A program made the position numbers and the translations under genes. Positions 17,281 through 58,047 of a DNA stretch of 64,000 nt are shown in pieces (position 1 is the first letter of the stretch; each line of letters opens with the position of its first letter). This DNA comes from Phorcus lineatus (Eukaryota; Mollusca; Gastropoda; Trochida; Trochidae). Location of the stretch: NCBI GenBank assembly GCA_921293015.1, contig OV121090.1:35065082-35129081 (forward strand). Reading direction: 5' to 3'. The notes below the pieces were generated by a model. It worked only from the letters and a program-made list of their open reading frames with translations, had not been told where the DNA came from and did no database searches.

Positions 17281-17875
17281 GCCTTGTAAATGTGTAAATA
17301 TGCATTGTCAATGTTCATTTTTTGCATTGTCAATTTATAGTTTTAGCTTTGTCAATGTATAGTATTAGTCTTATTAATGTGTAGTTTTAGTCTTTTCAAA
17401 GTATAATTTTAGCTTTGTCAATTTATAGTTTTAGCTTTGTCAATTTATAGTTTTAGCTTTGTCAATTTATAGTTTTAGCTTGTCAATGTGTATATAGTTT
17501 TAGCTTTTTTAATGTTTAGTTTTAGCCTTGTCAGTGTGTATTTATAGCCTTGTCAGCATATAGTTTTAGCCTTGTCAATGTACATTTTTAGCCTTGTCAA
17601 TGTATACATACTTTTAGCTTTGTCAATCTATAGTTTAAGCTTGTCAATGTTTAGTTAAAGCCTTGTTAATGCATAGTTTTAACTTTGTTAATGTTTAGTT
17701 TTAGCCTTGTCATTGTGTGTTTATAGCCTTGTCAGTATATAGTTTTAGCCTTTGCAATGTATAGTTTTAGCTTGTCAATGTATAGTTTTAGCTTTTTTTA
17801 TGTATAGTTAAAGGCTTGTCAATGTATAGCTATAGCCCTGTCAGGTTATAGTTTTAGCTTTGTCAATGCTTTGCA
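17281..17875. repeat. 22-bp minisatellite, ~25 units
   Basis: The consensus is close to AGTTTTAGCTTTGTCAATGT plus AT. Three nearly identical units lie at about 17400-17470 and more diverged ones on either side; some units are 23-28 bp through small insertions. It is not coding. Confidence 0.9.
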
Positions 17876-37030: not shown

Positions 37031-38110
37031 AACAGGTCAAGAGAATTTAACCGTGAGTACTGATGTTTCATAAAATTCGCCCATCACACGTTGTCACTAC
37101 AATTTGTTCGAGGCCGTATGTCGAAGTTTAGCAGTTTAGTTCATTAAGCAGTCAGAAGGATCAGATGTTACCTGTCTAAGGTCTCCTATGCATGTGTACA
37201 TAATGACACGAAAACAATGGAGACATTATTTGTCATCTTTATGTCCCTTATGAAAGCAATTGGTGTCATGTGAAGCCAATGGATATTAGTCTTTCTAAAT
37301 CTTAACCTCTCCTACAGAAATGTTGCACTCCCAAATCTGAATTTATTTTGGGATGGTACCTTAAGGAAAAGCGTTTTGGATTCGGTCTAATCCCTTGCCC
37401 CTTCAAATGGCTGGCATTTTGTCTAAAACATATTGACTACTTCTCCTCAGAAACCAATGTCACAGGAAGCTTAATTTTTTGTTATCAAACTTTGAGACGA
37501 TAGGAAAGGAAGACCTAATGCTTCTATTTTACTGTTTGGCCTTGTGTAATATATCTTGACATTATTTTGCCAATGGAAATTCAGGACCATTAGCGATTTT
37601 TCAGTTATTTATATCTGCTTCCAACCGTATATAGGTGTTTTTGCAATAAAGGTGGTAACCATGGGGTAATTTTCTCCCAAATGCGTGGATATTGTGTTAT
37701 TAAACCTTTAAACACGAAAGTTAAAGGTCTTGACTCTTTGTTTACGACATTAACTGTCAATATCATTAATATCCATTTTACATAATTTGAGTTTTAAACG
37801 TAGGTGAAAAGGAATCTACTGTTTGGTATTTTAGAAGTGTTTAGTGATATCTCTCAAGCCAAATGCATCGTATCCCATTCGTTATAACCAGAGTTGACTT
37901 TCATCTCGCGATAGCGGCGCCACTTAGATGTCAGGACTTTTGAGTTTGAGATATTCTCTTCTAGCTCCTTGAATTTTGACATTTAATAAGCAGAAAAATA
38001 AATTCTAAACATAGTCATGAATGACCAGCCGGCAGCGTTACGAGACATTAGGCCAGATAGACATCAGGTTATTTTGGGAGCTCTGTAGTTCCCAATACGC
38101 TGATGCATCC
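37031..38110. other. unique DNA, no gene recognised
   Basis: A CpG-containing patch lies at about 37880-38100; nothing identified. Confidence 0.4.
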
Positions 38111-38114
38111 TACG

Positions 38115-38638
38115 TACGGAAGCACCCTAGTGCCACAGTCAAAGTTTTATAATAGTAACTCCTAATTAGGAGATAAGTACCCCCTAATTAGGACTTAATT
38201 AACACCTAATTAGGAGAAAACTAAGTCCTACTTAGGACATAGCTATCTCCTAATTAGGACTTAATTATCGCCTAATTAGGAGATATATCACCTAATTAGG
38301 AGAAAGTAACTTTTAATTAAGATAACCAAGTCCTACTTAGGACATAGATATTTCCTAAGTAGTTGATACTTTCTCATAATTAGGTGATACTAACTCCTAA
38401 TTAGGTGATAATTATTTCCTAATTAGGTGATAACTAAGTCCTAATTAGGTGATAATTCTCTCCTAATTAGGAGTTAGTATGTCCTAATTAGGATTTAAAT
38501 CTCCTAATTAGGAGATAGTTTCCCCTAATTAGGTGATATTTATATCCTAATTAGTCGATGATTAAGTCCTAATTAGGTGATGGTATATCCTAGTAAGGGA
38601 AAAAAAATTTTTGACTGTGGCACTAGGATGCTTCCGTA
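38115..38638. mobile_element. TIR element filled with a phased palindrome array
   Basis: The left TIR (38115-38143) and right TIR (38610-38638) are 29-bp inverted repeats with one mismatch. The left begins TACGGAAGCACCCTAGTGCC. If the outer TA on each side is the target duplication, the element proper is 38117-38636 with CGGAAGC termini. This would fit a Tc1/mariner- or pogo-like MITE, though the superfamily is inferred. Almost the whole interior between the TIRs is the palindrome array. A second inverted pair (GTATACG 38644, CGTATAC 38671) lies just outside the right end. Confidence 0.85.
38161..38598. repeat. 21 CCTAATTAGG-type palindromes at ~21-bp spacing
   Basis: Palindrome starts are 38161, 38183, 38205, 38227, 38249, 38271, 38291, 38311, 38332, 38354, 38375, 38396, 38418, 38440, 38462, 38483, 38503, 38524, 38546, 38568 and 38589. 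All intervals are 20-22 bp, mean about 21.4. Fourteen of the 21 are exact CCTAATTAGG; others include CCTACTTAGG and CATAATTAGG. The spacers vary (AGATAAGTA, TGATAATTA and similar), so the palindrome is better conserved than the spacer. The TAATTA core is the site type bound by many homeodomain dimers, and a 21-bp spacing is two helical turns. Binding itself is inference. Confidence 0.95.
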
Positions 38639-40980
38639 CCTACGTATACGCTGTTGTAGTGTAGCGTCAACGTATACATTCTACGCGTTACGCTGACGTA
38701 ACAGGATGAACGAACACATGGATATCGTATCAGAGTTGTAAGATCAGTCGATATTAACAAGGAGCAATCTCTAGTCAACCCGTAACAAAGCGGAAAACTG
38801 CATGTAATTTTTCACTTTGATATTTGGCTCAACACATTATGAATGTAACCAATAAGGATACTTTCGTGACTGCTTCATCACGTGGACGTAATGTCGTGAA
38901 AGTGAGCGAACAGTATAGAGCCATAAACAAGGAAGAATAAAATGTTTGATAACCTTGGCAAACACATTCTATAATTTCACTAATAGAAAAAGATTACTTC
39001 TCAAATACATAGATTATTTTACAAAACGACCAACTTACATCTCAGGCATAGAGTCTTTTCATGCTCAAATCTCAAATAGACCACATTCGCTGTTTTTGTA
39101 TAGCTGTTCCTATACATTTATTGGTATAATGCTGCAGCATTCAGAGATAACATAACAGGTAAGGGTTTTTTTATAAAATTATGCACCATTGATGTTGATG
39201 TTTTCCGCGATGTTCAAATAAAAATTTTTTTTTAAAAACACATACATGAATGGGGCTCCCGGTATCCTCAAAGGAAGTTAATAGCACGCAGCATGTCGCT
39301 TCCTGCTCTCTGATGGCGGTAGGTAATGATGGTCCAATCAAGTCGGGTATGAAGTGATACCAGGCCATAGACAACTTACATTAACTTGCCTTTGATGTAC
39401 AATCAATTCATAATGCAGCGGAATCTCGACACGTCAAATATGGTTATAGCTCCTCCCTGATTTCAAACGTTGCAATATACTACTTTTGATTTGATCAATT
39501 ATGTTTTTTACCTTAATGGATTGACATAATTCATTTATCTCGAGAGAAAAACAATCGAGTTTATAGTACAATACAAGGCATAACATTCACTGACTGTGTG
39601 GAATCAAAGTTTTAAAACATTGATGGCCCTATTATTGTTCAGTTCTCAAGTCTCTGCCGTTAAGATAAAGGAATTCTTGAATTGGAGGTCCTAAGTGACC
39701 AACATCTTTTAATTTATTGCCTGTAAAGATATATCAACGATGGAATACATGTTGAAGCTTCAGCCTGAAATAATTTTAAACAGTATGTGATTAATATGAA
39801 ATAAAGACCAGTGTATTATTAACATGAGTTCATTGAAATGGTAACTATGAGATTAGAACCCATTCTGGACTTCAGTAATTGTCTGCATGGTAATAACCCT
39901 CACTAGGAATCCCTGCAGTAGCCGTGAAGTAATCCTAGCGGCTGAACAGGGCTGGAAGGTGTACTTATGTCGAGAGTAATATGGAGCGTGAAGGAGAGGT
40001 AGATTACAGACAGATAGCCTCATAATTCATTCGTCTAAATTGCATAGACATTTCTCCCACTTGCTTTTGCTTTTTCCACCTTAATCGTTATAACAAAGAC
40101 ACCTTCTGTTGCTTATTTTACTATTTTGAACAGCATGTAAGACCTTTAACAACATTAATATAGATATATTTATATAACAAGTGAACGTTGAATCCAAAAA
40201 TATAATGCAAAGTTTTCACCATTCATACATAATTGTGAGCTTTAGTTACTGTACAGTCAATAAGTGTTAGTTGGTGCTACTGACTTTTATTGTGTTTTGT
40301 ACGTTATATATCGAGGACCTTGTGCAAATATCTCGTATATATACACTAACCTTTGCAACAGGTGTGTTGACCTTTGCAACATGTGTGCTTCTGTGTTGCT
40401 AGACAAGGTATGGCCGTCAGTGTAAACTTCGCTATATCTGTTTGTATGATATTTACTTCTAGGAAAAGGTTTCTAATTTTAGTGGTCAGAAAAATCAGGA
40501 GAAAAATATACGAGTCCGAAATATCCATATTGTAGATATAACCACCTCAGTAATCCATCCAATAGAATAAATGAACATTTCTATTTGAATTACTTTCTAA
40601 TTTATCATGCGTCCTTGTGGATGTGTTAAAGCATTCGAGTATCTTTATGCTTGTGGTATGCTTTGATAAACATGTATATTACAGACTTGTTTATCTGCCA
40701 CTAACAGACGTAGGGGTTGGGGAAGAGATAGATATGACATCATATATACTACTCTCTGTGAGAGATATATAATTCGATATTATAATGTTATTATTCCGAT
40801 GACGTACCGTTCAAGCGTTCAAGTGAAAAAGCAAAGGAAAGATCGTCACAAATCCCCTTCAATATAAGTAATGAGCTTTCATCTTCACGGTACATGAAGC
40901 GCTTCTTATGACCATTTCTTCGCCAAATGAGCAGCTGAACATATTTTATGGTGTTGAATTCTGTTTCACTAAGTAATTCA
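38639..40980. other. unique DNA, no gene recognised
   Basis: CpG-containing near 38640-38720 and more balanced near 39880-40080, AT-rich elsewhere. Frames at 38946-39155 plus, 39171-39374 minus and 40346-40528 minus have no homology I recognise. Confidence 0.4.
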
Positions 40981-42157
40981 CATTGACATCAACATTGACA
41001 TCAACATTGACATCTGAAACACTGACACCAGCATGGACACATTATATCAGAAATATTGACATAAACAAACATTTCAATCAAAAACATAGAAATGAGTATG
41101 GAAACATTGACATTAGAAATATAAACATAAGTATTGAAACATAAGCATGACTATGGAAACATAGATATCAGAAACATAAACATGACTATGGAAACATTGA
41201 TATCAGAAACATAACATGACAATGGAAACATTGATATTAGAAACATAAACATGACTATGGAAACATTGATATTAGAAACATTAACATGAGCATAAAAACA
41301 TTGACATTAGAAACATAAACTTGAGCATGGGAACATTGATATTAGAAACATAAACATGAGCATGGAAACATTGACATTAGAAACATAAACACGAGCATGG
41401 AAACATTGACATTAGAAACATAAACACGAGCATGGAAACATTGACATTAGAAACATAAACATGAGCATGGAAACATTGACATTAGAAACATAAACATGAG
41501 CATGGAAACATTGACATTAGAAACATAAACACGAGCATGGAAACATTGACATTAGAAACATAAACACGAACATGGAAACATTGACATTAGAAACATAAAC
41601 ATGAGCATGGAAACATTGACATTAGAAACATAAACACGAGCATGGAAACATTGACATTAGAAACATTAACATGAGCATGGAAACATTGATATCAGAAACA
41701 TAAACATGAGCATGGAAACATTGATATTAGAAACATAAACATGACTATGGAAACATTGATATCAGAAACATAAACATGACTATGGAAACATTGATATTAG
41801 AAAGATAAACATGAGCATAAAAACATTGACATTAGAAAGATAAACATGAGCATGGAAACATTGACATTAGAAACATGAACATGAGCATGGAAACATTGAC
41901 ATTAGAAACATAAACATGAGCATGGAAACATTGACATTAGAAACATAAACATGAGCATGGAAACATTGATATTAGAAACATAAACATGAGCATGGTAACA
42001 TTGATATTTGAAACATAAACATGATCATGGAAACATTGATATTAGAAACATAAACATGATCATGGAAACATTGACATTAGAAACATAAACATGAGCATGG
42101 AAACATTGATATTAGAAACATCAACATGAGCATGGAAACATTGATATTAGAAACAGA
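40981..42157. repeat. 35-bp minisatellite, ~33 units
   Basis: The consensus is near AAACATTGACATTAGAAACA followed by TAAACATGAGCATGG. The first units (to about 41180) are diverged and partly shorter. The centre (about 41340-41680) is nearly homogeneous, with a variant ACACGAGC interspersed in a higher-order pattern, which indicates recent expansion from the middle. It is AT-rich and non-coding. Confidence 0.95.
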
Positions 42158-45587: not shown

Positions 45588-45683
45588 TTGCTAAGGTTCG
45601 ATAATTGGCTTCCTAAGGTTTGACATCTTGGATTGAAGGGTTTGATATCTTGGTTTGTAGGGTTTGAGATCTTGGTTTGTAAA
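45588..45683. repeat. ~25-bp tandem repeat, about four units
   Basis: Units resemble AAGGTTTGATATCTTGGTTT. A shorter, diverged version is present in copy B at about 56688-56745, so this small array predates the duplication. Confidence 0.75.
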
Positions 45684-47412
45684 GTGTATATCTCATTTTC
45701 GAAATGTTTCCTCATATATTCTTAAATGCACCATTAACTTGCGCCATCAGTGCGCATGCAACGCGTCTAGACAGGAACTAAAAGATCATAATTCGTTTGT
45801 TAAATATTTAAGACATCCTTCATTTTTAGGATGCGAAGGTGTTCTGTTATTGTGAAGAATTCAAGGACTACACTTCACGAGCGCAGGCAAATAGAATCTC
45901 TACATCTATTTAAGTAGGTTGCCATGTAGCAAAGTTTACCCTGCAGACGCCGTTATCAACGCCAGATCTTCTTCATGAGGTCAAATTGATTGACTGAACA
46001 TTTCGATGAAGACTCTATGTTTACTAATGCAGGAATACCTTGGTATGGGTGTCTTTATCAAGGTCTTCTAAATCTCCACCACGTGATGGGATTTTCTGGC
46101 AGTAATTTCTTTGAAACTTTTATTTGCATCTCGTCATTGTCAAAGAAAAAACACATTTCTTTCAGACAAAGACAACGGCTACGTTTTGTCATATTAACAT
46201 TTGAAATAAGCTAATATTTGTCGCATGGAATTTTAAAAACATAATTATCAGTCTAATTATAAAAGAAATATATACTTCTAGCACATCAAATATTTGTTAA
46301 AGTTTAAATGTTATGCGTTATGTTTAGGATAAAACATGACCAAAGAACATTATTAAAAAGGAAACGGGAAATGCGAAGGCGCTGAAGATCCACGGCCATT
46401 CCTAAGGGAGGAGGGATTACTTTCGACTTGAAGAATCAGGTTTGATGGAAATTACAGACATAGTGTCACAAAAGAACAATAAAGTGTAGTCACTGCAGGT
46501 TTACAGTAGCAAGTCACACCTGTGAACAAAATAACTAAAAAAACTTTATGTACCTTCTAAAAAAGGTGTCAAAAGAAGTTGGTAATTTGTTTAATACAAT
46601 TTCAACTTGGGGATATTGTCTTTCATCAAGTCCTCGTGTTCAGAGGAAGATATTAATAAATTAATGTAAATAATTAATTAATCAATCATGCTAGTGAATG
46701 ATCTAAACGCAAGCACCGGCGTTCATGAAACGAAGTGCACAAATATTTGAAGAATGTTTACAGCCCCGAGACTTCTGAAGTCATGTGATACCAGTTTAGC
46801 TTCTTCATTATCACTCTTCAAGAGCTAATTTGGTACAGACCTAAACCACAGGAAAGAGTTATTTGTGGAGTTCTTATTTAATATGAGGTTATCATACTTC
46901 GACTGAGCTAGGTAATAAACTGTTATTACGCTGATGTTAATATGTGGTGGGAATACGAGGTAGGGATTTTTTCGGCGATCGAGCGACCAAATTGCATTAC
47001 TAAATCTCGCATGGACTTATAAGAAATCTCCTGTTAGTTCACTGAAGTAGAGGTGAGATAACATATAATACAAGGTGTCTGGACAGTTTAGTATCTTCAT
47101 GCAATCCCTTGATACTAAATACTTTGCTTCCAGGTGGGATATATCCTAGAATGTTATTTCTGAAACGTCAACCACTGCTTAAAAATAAAATTCAAAGAAC
47201 TAAGTAACTGGTTATATGTTCTTTTGTAGTTCATTCAGAACACTTGTTAAAACAGTGAGTTGTCAATGAACATTTACATAATTTTTCTATATACTTTGAA
47301 ATGTATAGTGTACAGCTGCATCCCAAATTGTGAACCTACTTGTGTTAGTGCAAATGTCATGTAGTTTAGATTTTGTTTAGACATATTTGCACAATCCCAC
47401 TGAATTGACAAC

Positions 47413-48163
47413 GCATCACCCTCAACCTGTTTGTAGAATATCATTGTCTACCAGAGCATCACCCTCAACCTATTAGGAGAATATCATTGTCTACTATAGC
47501 ATCACCCTCAACCTATTAGGAGAATATCATTGTCTACCAGAGCATCACCCTCAACCTAATTTTAGAATAATCATTTTCTAACAAAGCATCACCCTCAACC
47601 TATTTGTAGAATAATCATTTTCTAACAAAGCATCGCCCCCAACCTATTTGTAGAATAATCATTTTCTAACAAAGCATTACCCTCAACCTATTTGTAGAAT
47701 AATCATTTGCTAACAAAGCATCACCCTCAATCAATTTGTAGAATAATCGTTGTCTAACAAAGCATCACCCTCAGTCTGGTTGTAGAATAATCATTGTCTA
47801 ACAAAGCATTACCCTCAACCGATTTGTGGAATAATCATTTTCTAACAAAGCATCACCCTCAACCTATTTGTAGAATAATCATTTTCTAACAAAGCATTAC
47901 CCTCAACCTATTTGTAGAATAATCATTTTCTAACAAAGCATTACCCTCAACCGATTTGTAGAATAATCGTTGTCTAACAAAGCATCACCCTCAACCTATT
48001 TGTAGAATAATCATTTTCTAACAAAGCATCGCCCTCAACCTATTTGTAGAATAATCGTTGTCTAACAAAGCATCACCCTCAGTCTGGTTGTAAAATAATT
48101 ATTGTCTAACAAAGCATCACCCTCAGTCTGGTTGTAGAATAATAATTTTCTAACAAAGCATGG
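47413..48163. repeat. 44-bp minisatellite, ~17 units, copy A only
   Basis: The consensus begins CATCACCCTCAACCTATTTG, continues TAGAATAATCATTTTCTAAC and ends AAAG. The first three units are about 43 bp with a slightly different variant (AATATCATTGTCTACCAGAG). The unit AAAGCATCATCCTTTGTCTG followed by TGTGTAAATATTCATTTT occurs once at about 59334-59375 in copy B at the matching place. Confidence 0.95.
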
Positions 48164-51480: not shown

Positions 51481-51974
51481 CACAACTTGCACCAAAGCAT
51501 AAACTGACAAGAAATATTTACGCACATCTACAAATTATCTGTTTTCCCATTATGTTTAAGGTTCAAACATATTCAGAAGAATAGAATGGCTATGAATTAG
51601 CGTTTAAAATATATACATTTAGATGTCCTGATAACAATTTGAATTATGATTTATGTCAATGTTACATTGAATATGAAAAAAAGATTATATTTCAGGTCAT
51701 CTTTCACACACTTTTGCAACAAATCATCAACTTGATGAAGATATGTGATGAAATATACCACATGCAAAAAGACAAGTAGTAGAAACAAATACACAACAGA
51801 CTAATATATAATGATAAATGTTATCACAGATACATAACATTAATGACTAGGACACACTTTTCTGACATAGTGACATTGCATATGAAATATTAATAAGTAC
51901 GATTAATTTTGTACTTTTTTACCCAAAATAAGACAGAAAAGCTCATTTGATCATTTTATTATTTAAAAATCATA
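51481..51974. other. AT-rich spacer between duplicate copy A and the LINE
   Basis: No homology to copy B and no feature recognised. Confidence 0.4.
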
Positions 51975-53632
51975 AATCAATTTAAAAGACTAGAAATTTT
52001 ATGGCTGGGATCAAAGAAACGTTCGAGAATGAAACTTTGCCCCGAGTGGAAGCTAAACTGGGATCAAGACTCCTTTACACTTTTGGGAATTCACTTTAGT
52101 CTAGATCTTGAGGACATGGTTAAAATGAATTACGATGAAAAGCTCATAAAATGTCAAACTTTAATGAACCTGTGGTCTGTCAGAAACCTCACTCCGCTTA
52201 AATTGGTAGAAACACTATATTAAAATCACTTATTCTTCCGAAACTTAACCATCTTTTTACAACAATCCCAAACCCACCTGAAAACGTCATTAAAGATTTC
52301 CAAAGCAAATGTTTCAAATTCATTTGGAAAAATAAACCTGATAAAATAAAAAGAGGCCACGTTATCTGCAATACAGATGACGGAGGTTTCAATGTTCCCA
52401 AGATAAAAGAAATTATCCAAGCGCAAAAGCTATCCGTCCTTAGACGTAACTATAAGAAACGAACATCTTGGTCTAATTTAATTGAAATGAACCTGCCTAA
52501 AATCAATTCAATGGACATTTAAGAACTTAATTGTCATCATTTAAAGAACGAAATCACGCAAGATATTAGAAATCCGTTCTATATAGACTTAGTATCATCT
52601 TGGCTTGACTTTGTAAAAAATATCTCATCCCAAGCAGTTACAGACATTCCTAATGAAACAATATGGCACAACTCAAACATTATGATCGGTAAACAAACTA
52701 TTTATTACCCAGACTGGAACTCCAAAAGAATTCACTTTATAAATGACCTTTTGGATGAGAACGACTGTTTTCTAGACTTTATAGGATTTAAGAAAATATA
52801 TGATATTAATACAAACTTTATTCTCTATTATGGCTTGATTCAAGCAATAAAAGCATACATAAAATCAATGGGATTTACGCAAGTAAAAAAGTTAGAATTA
52901 CCAACTTTTCCTCTCAATATAAAACATCTCTGCAAAGAAAACAAAGGATCTAGACACTACTATTCAATCCTTATTCAGAGTCAATGCATAAAAAATCACC
53001 ATATTAACAAGTGGAATTTCGAATTACAAAGCAACATTCCTAATATAGCATGGAACAAATACAACAAGATACCTTTCGGATGCACTACTCATACAAACAT
53101 ACAATGGTTTCAATACAAAATTCTACACCATATCCTACCAACAAATACTCGACTTTACAAAATTGGATATTTGAAGTCTGACCTATGTGATTTCTGTTCA
53201 AGACATCCTGATACTATCCAACATTTATTCTGGGAATGTGATTTTGTGAGACCACTGTGGACAAAATTGGAAGATTGGCTGAAAGAGAAAGCGCAAATCG
53301 AAATACATTTTGATAAACAAAAGATTCTTATTGGCTTCCCAGACAGAAACAACGACCCGTTAAACATTATTATTCTGATTTTCAAAAAAACAATTTTCGA
53401 TCTTAAACTCAAAAGGCCGCCAACCTTCCAAACACTAATTTCTAAAGTCCACGATTATTATAATGTTACTAAATGTGAAGCTGAAATGTCTAACAAAATC
53501 GATATGTTCTATAAATTCTGGTCATCCTGTCATTTTTTATTCATATAAATGTAACGTGTGATTGATACCTACATGTATATATTTTCGAAATAAAAGTTTA
53601 AATTAAAAAAAAATCAATCAATCAATTTAAAA
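51975..53632 (+). mobile_element. 5'-truncated LINE with 13-bp TSD and A-rich tail
   Basis: The element body (51988-53619) is flanked by a perfect 13-bp direct repeat AATCAATTTAAAA at 51975-51987 and 53620-53632, so it arose by target-primed reverse transcription. The 3' end has a stop at 53546-53548, a polyadenylation signal AATAAA at 53589-53594, nine A at 53605-53613 and short TCAA repeats. Only about the last 1.6 kb of an expected 5-7 kb element is present; the 5' truncation falls inside the reverse transcriptase ORF. It sits between the two copies of the segmental duplication. Confidence 0.93.
51988..53548 (+). pseudogene. LINE ORF2 C-terminal fragment (reverse transcriptase thumb to zf-RVT)
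   Basis: Frame 1 (51988-52223) reads EILWLGSKKRSRMKLCPEWK then FTLLGIHFSLDLEDM, the post-catalytic part of a non-LTR reverse transcriptase. A frameshift near 52197-52204 moves to a second frame with ILKSLILPKLNHLF and FKFIWKNKPDKIKRG. An in-frame TAA at 52520-52522 interrupts this frame. From 52682 it is open for 288 codons to 53548. That piece carries the C-terminal zinc-binding motif of LINE ORF2, LCDFCSRHPDTIQHLFWEC (Cys169, Cys172, His181, Cys186 of the open piece). The pattern resembles L1/Tx1-type elements, but the clade is not resolved. One frameshift and one stop over 1.56 kb suggest moderate age, younger than the mariner relic. The catalytic YADD region and endonuclease are missing. 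Confidence 0.93.
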
Positions 53633-55408: not shown

Positions 55409-58047
55409 TGGTAAAGTTGGCACAGCATCTACGGCCCTTAGTTAGTTCAAAGAAATTCGGGTATCATGGTACATCTCCGACTTAAATCTGTCCTGGAAGA
55501 TGTATCCAGCATCAGTTATCAGTTACATGATCAATTCAAGTCCATTTTGAAACGAAATCGCTAATTCCGAATATTTCTTTGATTATAATCAATAAAAGAA
55601 TATTTTGTGTTTCTGGCCTATAAAATGCTCAACTTGAAACGGGGTTTGCCTTGGAAGGTACTGTTTTCAACTGATATCAGATTCAAGTTTTGTTTTTGAA
55701 TAAGCATTATTTAAACGTTGATTTCAATGCCCTACGACATATAACACTATGGGTATATAAATAGTAATTACTTAAGTGGTGGATCACTCGCCACCCAATT
55801 TCTAAACATTTTTATATAAAGCACACTCCCAACAAAGGAGATATGACGATTGAGGGGGGTAAATTTCATGCGGCACTGACAAATCGCATTTATGAATTCT
55901 TTCGTCCCTATTTCACTTTTGTACTAGGCGTGGCTTCGAGTCAAGTTTCCATGATTTTGTCAAAGTTTTCCCCAGTCTCATTAGGTCAGACAGACAGATA
56001 ATTCTGTTTATGTCTCACTCGCAACTACACGTAACATGAATTCACATCTTTGAAATAAGTCAACCTTAAGTGTGACTACGACAAGTCGCTCAGAGACAAT
56101 ATTACTTAACTTGTGAAAAGGTACATGTTAAAATATATATTTACAAAATACAACGTTAAATATGCACATTTCACTATCTTCTTGAGCGCCAGTTAAAATA
56201 AGCTTAACCGTATAAAACACCATGCCCTATCGTAAAAATACAATGGCACGTTTGGAAAGGATCAAAATTAGATCCCTAGAATTAAAAATACAATAAAACT
56301 TATCTTCTGAAGACAGAAAAATAAAAGTTAATATTTTACTTTGCTTTGGTGGTGATTGCAAAACAGGGGTATAAAAACGTTTGATAAAATTGTTTTATGT
56401 TATTTTCTCATCCGATTGTTGTAAGTAATTTGAATTAATCATAATTATGCGTTACCCCTCCTCTTTAAAAGGTTCATGAGATATTTAATTATCTGAGTGA
56501 TAGTGTTTGTTTGTCGAAAAATCAAATTCGATTTTCAAATTCAATGTACATTTGGTTACCCCAGGTTCATTTCTAGGAAATCACTGAATTTTACATGTGG
56601 TGTGATTTTCTCCCGAAATATAACATTCGAACTATTATGTATAGTGTTGCAAATTTATCATGCCTCATGCCGGACTCCAGCTTGAGAAGGTTTGATATTT
56701 TGATTGCTAAGGTTTGATATCTTGTTTTCTAATTTTTGTTTTCTAATGTATAGCATTAAGTCGCCCATCAATGCTTGGCATGCAATCCGTCTAGACAGGA
56801 AGTAGAAGATCACGATTCGTTTGTTAAATATCTAAGACATCTTTATTTCTCATGAATCAAACACTGTTCTGTTATTATGAAGAATTCAATAACTAAACTT
56901 CACCAGCGCAGGTAGATAAAATCTCTAAATCTTTTATGTAGGTTGCCATGAAGGAATGTTTAACCTGCCGACGCCATTATCAACGCTAAGTCTCTGTTCA
57001 TTTTGAAATATTTAACCGGTGCGTTAACTAGTTTACTTTATATACTTTACGAGCTTTTTAGCAATTAAAATAAAACCATGGTTAAATTTACTTTGTATGA
57101 TTCTTAAGGTTTAAGCCTATGGGAAAAAATCTCATCTATGGTGTTAACACTTTCAGACTCTTAACAACTTAAATTAACAAATTAGCAACCCAATTACATG
57201 GAACTCAAACTTTGTTTATAAAGTTTGTAAGAAACTGACTCAATTTTCTGGGTCCCACTTGTTGCCTGTCATCCTCCTCTCCGCCTTGTCTCTAGGGCAT
57301 AGTGATCAGTTATTGACAGTTATTGAGTCACAATTTTAACATTATGACTTCCCATTGTCTAAAGTGTGCACATACTTTGAGAAGAAACGAACAAGCATTG
57401 CAGTGAGACGTAGGGTAACTCTTATGTTCCTCGGTTTGAGATCTCTCTATATTATTTGATGAAAGAGTTGCAGTTGATAAGATGTAAGTCAATAAGTTTT
57501 CATGCATCATATTGTAAACGAAATGATGTCAATTGAGAGATGAACCAATTGTTATTGACTACAACATTTACCGTCCAGGTTCATCTGAAAGACGTTTGTG
57601 ACACTTGTAAAGGTGATGAGAACTGACTTTGCCGACTTCTTCTGACTTGTACACCTCCAATGATGTGCTAATATGTTAATAATAGTAAGGATCCAATCCA
57701 CATTTAATCAGTTGTCTAAGGTTTAACATGTCTGAATAAAGGAATAACTATTGGTAGAGGTAGTTGCTTTTAAACCATGACAAAAACGAGAAAAGGCAAG
57801 AAAAACAAAATGGACTGTAAAGCTAAAATATACAATAATTTCCCCTGACACGAAAAAACACCTTTTGTATCTGTAGCAGTTGCACAAATGGGCATAAATA
57901 ACCCAGGATTATCTATCAACACAGTAAAGTTCGATCATAATGAATGATATTATGAATATGATATTGAGAACTCAAGATTTATATAATTGGTATGAATGTA
58001 AATTTTAAAAAACATCATTATGCTAAAACAAAAGTTGATTTAATTTG

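Follow-up and report, generated by a model that had tools for sequence, protein, structure and literature searches.

A phased array of TAATTA palindromes dispersed by an IS3EU-like MITE family in Phorcus lineatus

Within the window, the whole 64-kb stretch of DNA (64,000 nucleotides) analysed here, a short element at 38115-38638 is bounded by terminal inverted repeats (TIRs) of 29 bp that differ at one mismatch. The left TIR (38115-38143, plus strand) begins with TACGG and the right TIR (38610-38638, minus strand) ends in CCGTA, in agreement with an earlier account made from the sequence alone (hereafter the preliminary description). The inverted repeat can be extended without gaps to 38 nt at 89%, and its outward extension is no better than that of shuffles (p 0.27). 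Both TIRs are abutted by CCTACG (38109-38114 and 38639-38644), a 6-bp target-site duplication (TSD) that the preliminary description, which thought of TA duplications, had missed. Two 8-bp readings (ATACGCTG and CCTACGTA) were replaced by the 6-bp one; the match looks 8 bp long only because the TIR begins with TA and the right flank continues with TA. The array itself (38161-38598) lies between a left subterminal stretch (38144-38160), which is rich in T in the majority of 35 listed copies, and a right subterminal A/T stretch (38599-38609). The right side corresponds to the "A end" of the family, where the spacer reads ATATACCATCA inward. It is composed of 21 palindromes of the CCTAATTAGG type starting 20-22 bp apart (mean 21.4), 14 of them exact, as had been described; TAATTA is present in 17 of the 21, and every one of the 14 exact CCTAATTAGG occurrences in the 64-kb window falls inside the element. 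No ORF of at least 85 aa was found in 38115-38638, and Rfam gave no match anywhere in the window.

The claim that spacers vary more than palindromes holds in this copy, with deviations in 11 of 210 cells of the palindrome columns vs 51 of 200 cells of the ten outer spacer columns (p 6e-9). Of four control arrays taken from the window, three also showed uneven column conservation (chi2/df 2.7-6.2, vs 4.0 here) and the fourth did not (0.9), so column heterogeneity alone is not unusual. A second feature missed before is that the 22-bp unit consensus is fully self-complementary (22/22), with a second dyad in the spacer, whereas 3000 random 22-mers gave a 99th percentile of 16 and a maximum of 20; the spacers are therefore not free. 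They hold a skeleton of strong and weak (S/W) letters (9.63/10, shuffled maximum 7.87), and the variability profile is dyad-symmetric (Spearman 0.72, p 0.012).

Searching the genome (957.8 Mb) revealed 355 candidate places, and among the 40 that were scored, most matches reach the TIR ends. At up to three mismatches, 476 TIR ends (244 + 232) were counted genome-wide, compared with 0 + 0 for a reversed-pattern control. Besides 39 other high-scoring copies, we analysed 74 further loci, which account for 80 of 100 listed exact-TIR places (contigs C1 to C29); the remaining 20 fall in loci already analysed. In all, 119 loci were used for TIR pairing. When a partner TIR was allowed up to seven mismatches within 1.3 kb, 45 of the 74 exact-TIR loci were paired and all 45 carry at least four palindromes (at least five in 42 and only four in each of three copies). 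Among the 29 partnerless loci, 24 have at least five palindromes within 900 bp and the other five have one to four. The 82 TIR pairs obtained over the 119 loci measure 138-909 bp (median 600), and their 6-bp TSDs are exact in 58, carry one mismatch in 14 and more in 10, while chance identity between flanks of different copies was 15/6642 (0.0023). The 58 exact TSDs tend towards GWWWWC, with G at position 1 in 29, A or T at positions 3 and 4 in 55 and 51, and C at position 6 in 30.

The family thus displays the features of a MITE, namely small size, TIRs, a TSD, many copies and, in the window copy, the lack of any ORF of at least 85 aa. The palindrome array is dispersed by this MITE family, hundreds of TIR ends of which are scattered in the genome, as the preliminary description had proposed. 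Its other suggestion, a satellite captured inside a MITE, found no backing in a small sample: five arrays without an exact TIR, from the array-search matches listed (contig C1 up to 34.3 Mb), all possess a TIR at up to two mismatches, four at both ends and one (L136) at one end. One locus (L069, G000:C2:6291772-6294600) contains three exact TIRs within 423 bp, as if two elements adjoin, and in another (L034) a second partial TIR (gtacggaagc) closes the left flank, as would fit a nested or duplicated end. In IMG/VR no exact match to the 23-base TIR pattern was found, and palindrome matches amounted to two chance pairs and no arrays; a phage collection gave no match. On one viral contig (L001, 983-1014), two CCTAATTAGG palindromes lie 22 bp apart outside any longer array, and are perhaps operator-like.

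The termini resemble those of IS3EU transposons, which have TA..TA termini and usually 6-bp TSDs (PMC10045372), rust-fungus IS3EU families ending in TAYGG..CCRTA (PMC12730594). The window copy has TACGG..CCGTA, and 36 of the 40 high-scoring loci begin with TACGG and 35 end in CCRTA (34 in CCGTA). The 6-bp TSD (72 of the 82 pairs with at most one mismatch) is likewise shared with IS3EU and GingerRoot, and it is not diagnostic alone, since it is also given for Polinton and hAT6 (PMC10045372, PMC12730594). The TIRs of 29 bp compare with more than 30 bp in the rust-fungus families (PMC12730594), and, unlike in IS3EU and GingerRoot, the interior consists of a palindrome array only. Autonomous IS3EU members carry a DDD/E transposase of IS3EU type. 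A profile search with PF13683, in which 150 of 669 candidates were scored, yielded 130 matches; many of these lie in frames longer than 1000 aa, which we took for retroelements, and the best one (L137) is by eye a Ty3/gypsy-like retroelement without such TIRs. A transposase bearing the family TIRs was not found among the matches scored. As ends and TSD fit and no transposase was found, the element is named IS3EU-like by its ends and is not a proven IS3EU member.

We aligned 69 copies of at least 440 bp, omitting 11 of 80 elements under 440 bp as well as five of the 40 high-scoring loci without a recognisable end. Their arrays align with a mean agreement of 0.936 over 738 core columns (0.815-0.983 for single copies), and the spacer sequences return in one order from copy to copy, indicating that the array was inherited and not built anew. 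Thirty-one units, 24 of them exact, make up the majority array, which contains similar blocks (spacers 2-6 resemble 8-12, and 15-17 resemble 25-27). Across the 80 elements, 20-22 bp separate the palindromes in 1812 of 1894 intervals, and the number of palindromes at up to two mismatches ranges from 4 to 39 (median 25). Array length varies by unit steps, in which deletions of at least 40 bp also fall. Deletion junctions, as placed by the alignment, are exactly common to up to eight copies at different loci, which suggests that shortened arrays also moved; together with the paired copies that have four palindromes, this counts against the array serving the element.

TAATTA is the core site of homeodomains, for which the core is expected to be more constrained than its flanks, and in the CArG box, CC(A/T)6GG, CC and GG are expected to be constrained like the core. 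The CArG consensus is perfect in 14 of the 21 window-copy sites, with CC and GG kept in 19-20 of 21, and on the latter ground a CArG/MADS identity was considered the better reading. Comparison across copies led us to drop it. After blocks with two or more changes had been removed, variants present in at least four copies were found at 3 of 9684 cells of the TAATTA core vs 27 of 12959 spacer cells (per-cell ratio 0.15, p 0.002; 6 vs 42 and p 0.0008 with a looser filter), whereas the CC/GG flanks, with 15 distinct variants vs 27 for the spacer, vary like the spacer (p 0.86; looser filter 0.35), the split into core and flank having been made afterwards. Since the core is spared and CC/GG are not, the TAATTA reading is favoured over CArG/MADS, and the choice of the TAATTA core in the preliminary description fits this. 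For Acta2, CCTAATTAGG is listed as the CArG box of the second SRF site (PMC4524680), and TTTCCTAATTAGGAAA, which contains it, is given for Mcm1 in a table (PMC1779545). Those sites are single, whereas here dozens lie in phase inside a transposon; CC and GG define the CArG box yet are not spared here among common variants.

Units of the majority array deviate at 7 of 310 palindrome cells vs 63 of 300 outer spacer cells, a contrast to the private variants (p 6e-13) in which duplication-related units are not independent. Palindrome changes affect C or G in 58 of 85 cases when shared between copies vs 33 of 82 when private (p 0.0003), and the outer positions 1 and 9 are also more variable. For the palindrome as a whole, variants in at least four copies gave a ratio of 0.54 (p 0.11) or 0.43 (p 0.007), distinct variants of the end-anchored set gave p 0.125, and singletons against all shared variants gave p 0.67 and 0.26; variants in two or three copies showed no deficit (1.49, 0.97). 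The weakness of the whole-palindrome deficit and its absence at two or three copies are points against constraint. Spacer differences among units (distinct spacers) keep the S/W class in 43 of 51 cases vs 21 of 54 for private variants (p 2.6e-6), and shared spacer variants are not so enriched (55/131 or 0.42, vs 0.39 private), so the S/W skeleton either is old or arose as the array was built. As an explanation we prefer constraint on the spreading lineage, which is unproven, and see a passive minisatellite as the main rival.

Taken as a whole, the element is best explained as a non-autonomous IS3EU-like MITE with an inherited array that may serve the element's own spread, a reading to which we give even chances. 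An IS3EU/GingerRoot transposase would move it in trans by acting on the TIRs, with insertion probably at a 6-bp stagger, as judged from the TSDs, and the TAATTA palindromes would be kept in the spreading lineage since the array serves the element. The array may constitute a putative platform of repeated sites that are bound and bent, either by the transposase or by a host protein that recognises palindromes and would be of the homeodomain type rather than CArG/MADS, and would thereby aid movement. That the palindromes are kept because of such a putative platform is a proposition we rate a little short of even. Only tentatively do we extend it to the whole body as a putative platform of about 31 TAATTA palindromes two turns apart, on which the transposase or a host factor of the germ line, bound as a bent, multivalent array, would drive transposition, selection acting on spread while the copies, after insertion, decay neutrally.

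It is possible, at a level that we also call tentative, that the array is a passive minisatellite in an IS3EU-like MITE, shaped by slippage or unequal exchange with the palindromes as homology tract; units with a broken palindrome would exchange less, so that palindromes would look conserved without any binding. The shifts of array length by unit steps and blocks, the high column heterogeneity of three of the four control arrays and the weak whole-palindrome tests of common variants all agree with passive exchange, which on its own leaves unexplained why the core is spared but CC/GG is not, the S/W skeleton of the spacers and the 20-22 bp spacing of nearly all intervals. The recount in which the core proved spared raised our estimate slightly for the platform, in its narrower and its 31-palindrome form, and lowered it for the passive minisatellite.

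The preliminary description had taken 21 bp for two helical turns, with all sites on one face of the helix. For the 21 sites of the window copy, the resultant is 0.42 at 10.5 bp/turn, with a drift of 274 degrees, and 0.85 at 10.7; for the majority array, a pitch of 10.8 was the best of four tried (0.85, compared with 0.33 at 10.5). The array spacing fits a helical pitch of 10.7-10.8 and not 10.5, so "two turns, one face" is true only for a slightly long pitch. A periodicity of this kind could itself be the signal, in that alternation of W-rich and S stretches every 10.7-10.8 bp would position nucleosomes or bend the DNA and the palindrome letters would be secondary. The W/S periodogram peaks at 53.9 for the majority array (656 bp, at 10.8 bp) and at 31.4 for the window copy (at 10.7), above the 99th percentile (7.8) and maximum (25.3) of 400 random 440-mers of the window, and the majority array also exceeds the random maximum (16.9) in its TA-step peak (20.0), but the window copy, with a TA-step peak of 10.0, stays inside the random 99th percentile (10.4). 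The period moreover differs from the nucleosomal one of about 10.2, and the exact core letters are kept beyond their W/S class, which makes a nucleosome or bending signal an improbable explanation.

Variants private to single copies bear on a host regulatory role, by which the MITE would spread multivalent sites for homeodomain proteins or SRF (CArG) and the host would use and retain them, much as the preliminary description had imagined a ready-made binding platform. A first palindrome/spacer ratio of 0.37 was discarded, being thought inflated by unit exchange. The unfiltered whole alignment gave 0.72, 0.67 and 0.57 as the agreement cut-off rises, low values that we ascribe to unit exchange and misalignment in the spacers, and unfiltered end-anchored units gave 1.22. 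With filtering, private variants occur at 170 of 16140 palindrome cells vs 150 of 12959 spacer cells in the whole alignment (ratio 0.91; 0.93 with the looser filter) and at 82 of 7660 vs 54 of 5885 in end-anchored units (ratio 1.17, p 0.39), ratios that the filter may push up because it removes more spacer than palindrome blocks (277 and 90 dropped for mismatches plus 659 and 435 for gaps in the whole alignment; 182 and 29 dropped in the end-anchored set, where 23 of 192 TIR ends were rejected). Given filtered ratios of 0.91-1.17, family-wide host selection on the palindromes is not evident, though still conceivable, and we infer that individual copies decay under little selection or none. Palindromes and spacers are about alike among filtered private variants. 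The presence of CCTAATTAGG at the Acta2 SRF site and within the Mcm1 site (PMC4524680, PMC1779545), the 14 perfect CArG boxes and the low unfiltered whole-alignment ratios, which raised our estimate a little, speak for host use; in view of the filtered and end-anchored ratios, which reveal no clear family-wide selection, we consider it decidedly unlikely, and a few co-opted copies would escape the private-variant test.

Least likely of all, and very improbable in our view, is a foldback element, in which the self-complementary array would fold the element as a whole into a long hairpin as the selected or mechanistic feature. Foldback transposons have long inverted repeats that contain tandem repeats and can pair. 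Single-strand folding of 38103-38645 reaches -147.6 kcal/mol (z -23.9) and runs through the palindromic units of the whole element, the unit consensus is fully self-complementary and three mirror axes of spacer similarity among about 30 tried reach p 0.004-0.045, but half-unit variants are not common to both orientations above chance (p 0.74), which leaves inverted exchange of half-units unsupported, spacer dyads do not covary (54 of 100 pairs, compared with a mean of 59.8 after shuffling) and the A and B ends differ from each other in most copies.

The statement that no named element has this design needs qualification, as the ends fit IS3EU and tandem-repeat MITEs are known. An element of this design was not found among the open-access papers listed on CCTAATTAGG, on MITEs with minisatellites or palindromic arrays, on bivalve MITEs, on CArG boxes in transposable elements and on IS3EU or GingerRoot. 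Tandem-repeat MITEs reportedly occur in the clam Donax trunculus, going by the title of a cited paper. The BrickBuilt MITE of Porphyromonas gingivalis, with 19 copies in one strain, has an interior of 23-nt tandem minisatellite between small inverted-repeat ends; it differs in being bacterial, in its TIRs and in that the main text of its description has no word starting with "palindrom" (PMC4596501). Tetris, a foldback transposon of Drosophila virilis, is a non-autonomous TIR element with internal tandem repeats, the transposase of which was not found, and differs by repeats of about 220 bp inside long TIRs, TSDs of 8-10 bp and a suggested Mutator affiliation (PMC4079207). MITEs with internal tandem repeats (PMC4596501, PMC4079207) are thus already known, as are CCTAATTAGG sites. 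The Pacific oyster satellite CgiSat43 has a 21-bp monomer with 66.7% AT, and its table row shows a plus in ten columns, taken for chromosomes, and no Repbase assignment (PMC8268682); identity with the 22-bp unit is only a lead, drawn from monomer length and AT content.

The family offers a natural test of whether the interior of a transposon, and not just its ends, can be selected for spreading, and provides many homologous arrays in one genome with ordered spacers shared and site number varying. Should a host factor bind the palindromes, the family would scatter multivalent TAATTA sites ready for use; should the transposase bind them, they would form an internal recognition array of unusual extent. 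In both cases, motif scans could take the arrays for developmental enhancers.

ACGT/TACGCTG motifs flank the insertion point of the window copy on both sides, and the right flank (38643-38760) is unusually CpG-rich (11 CpG, observed/expected 2.2); the element may have inserted into a region that is a repeat in its own right. Inverted repeats comparable to those of the element were not found within 300 bp of ten other tandem arrays of the window, part of a longer list. A 35-bp array of 29 copies (41136-42155) and a 44-bp array of 17 copies (47408-48161) show none in that range. Another 22-bp tandem array (17305-17868, about 25 copies), which served as a control for column heterogeneity, is not palindromic, and no TIRs were found for it. 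Two short 22-bp repeats, 11 kb apart at 45617-45681 and 56687-56732, resemble each other in their units of GTTTGAYATCTTG type, and reading frames at 51951-53548 resemble, by eye, the C-terminal region of a LINE reverse transcriptase with a Cys-His motif.
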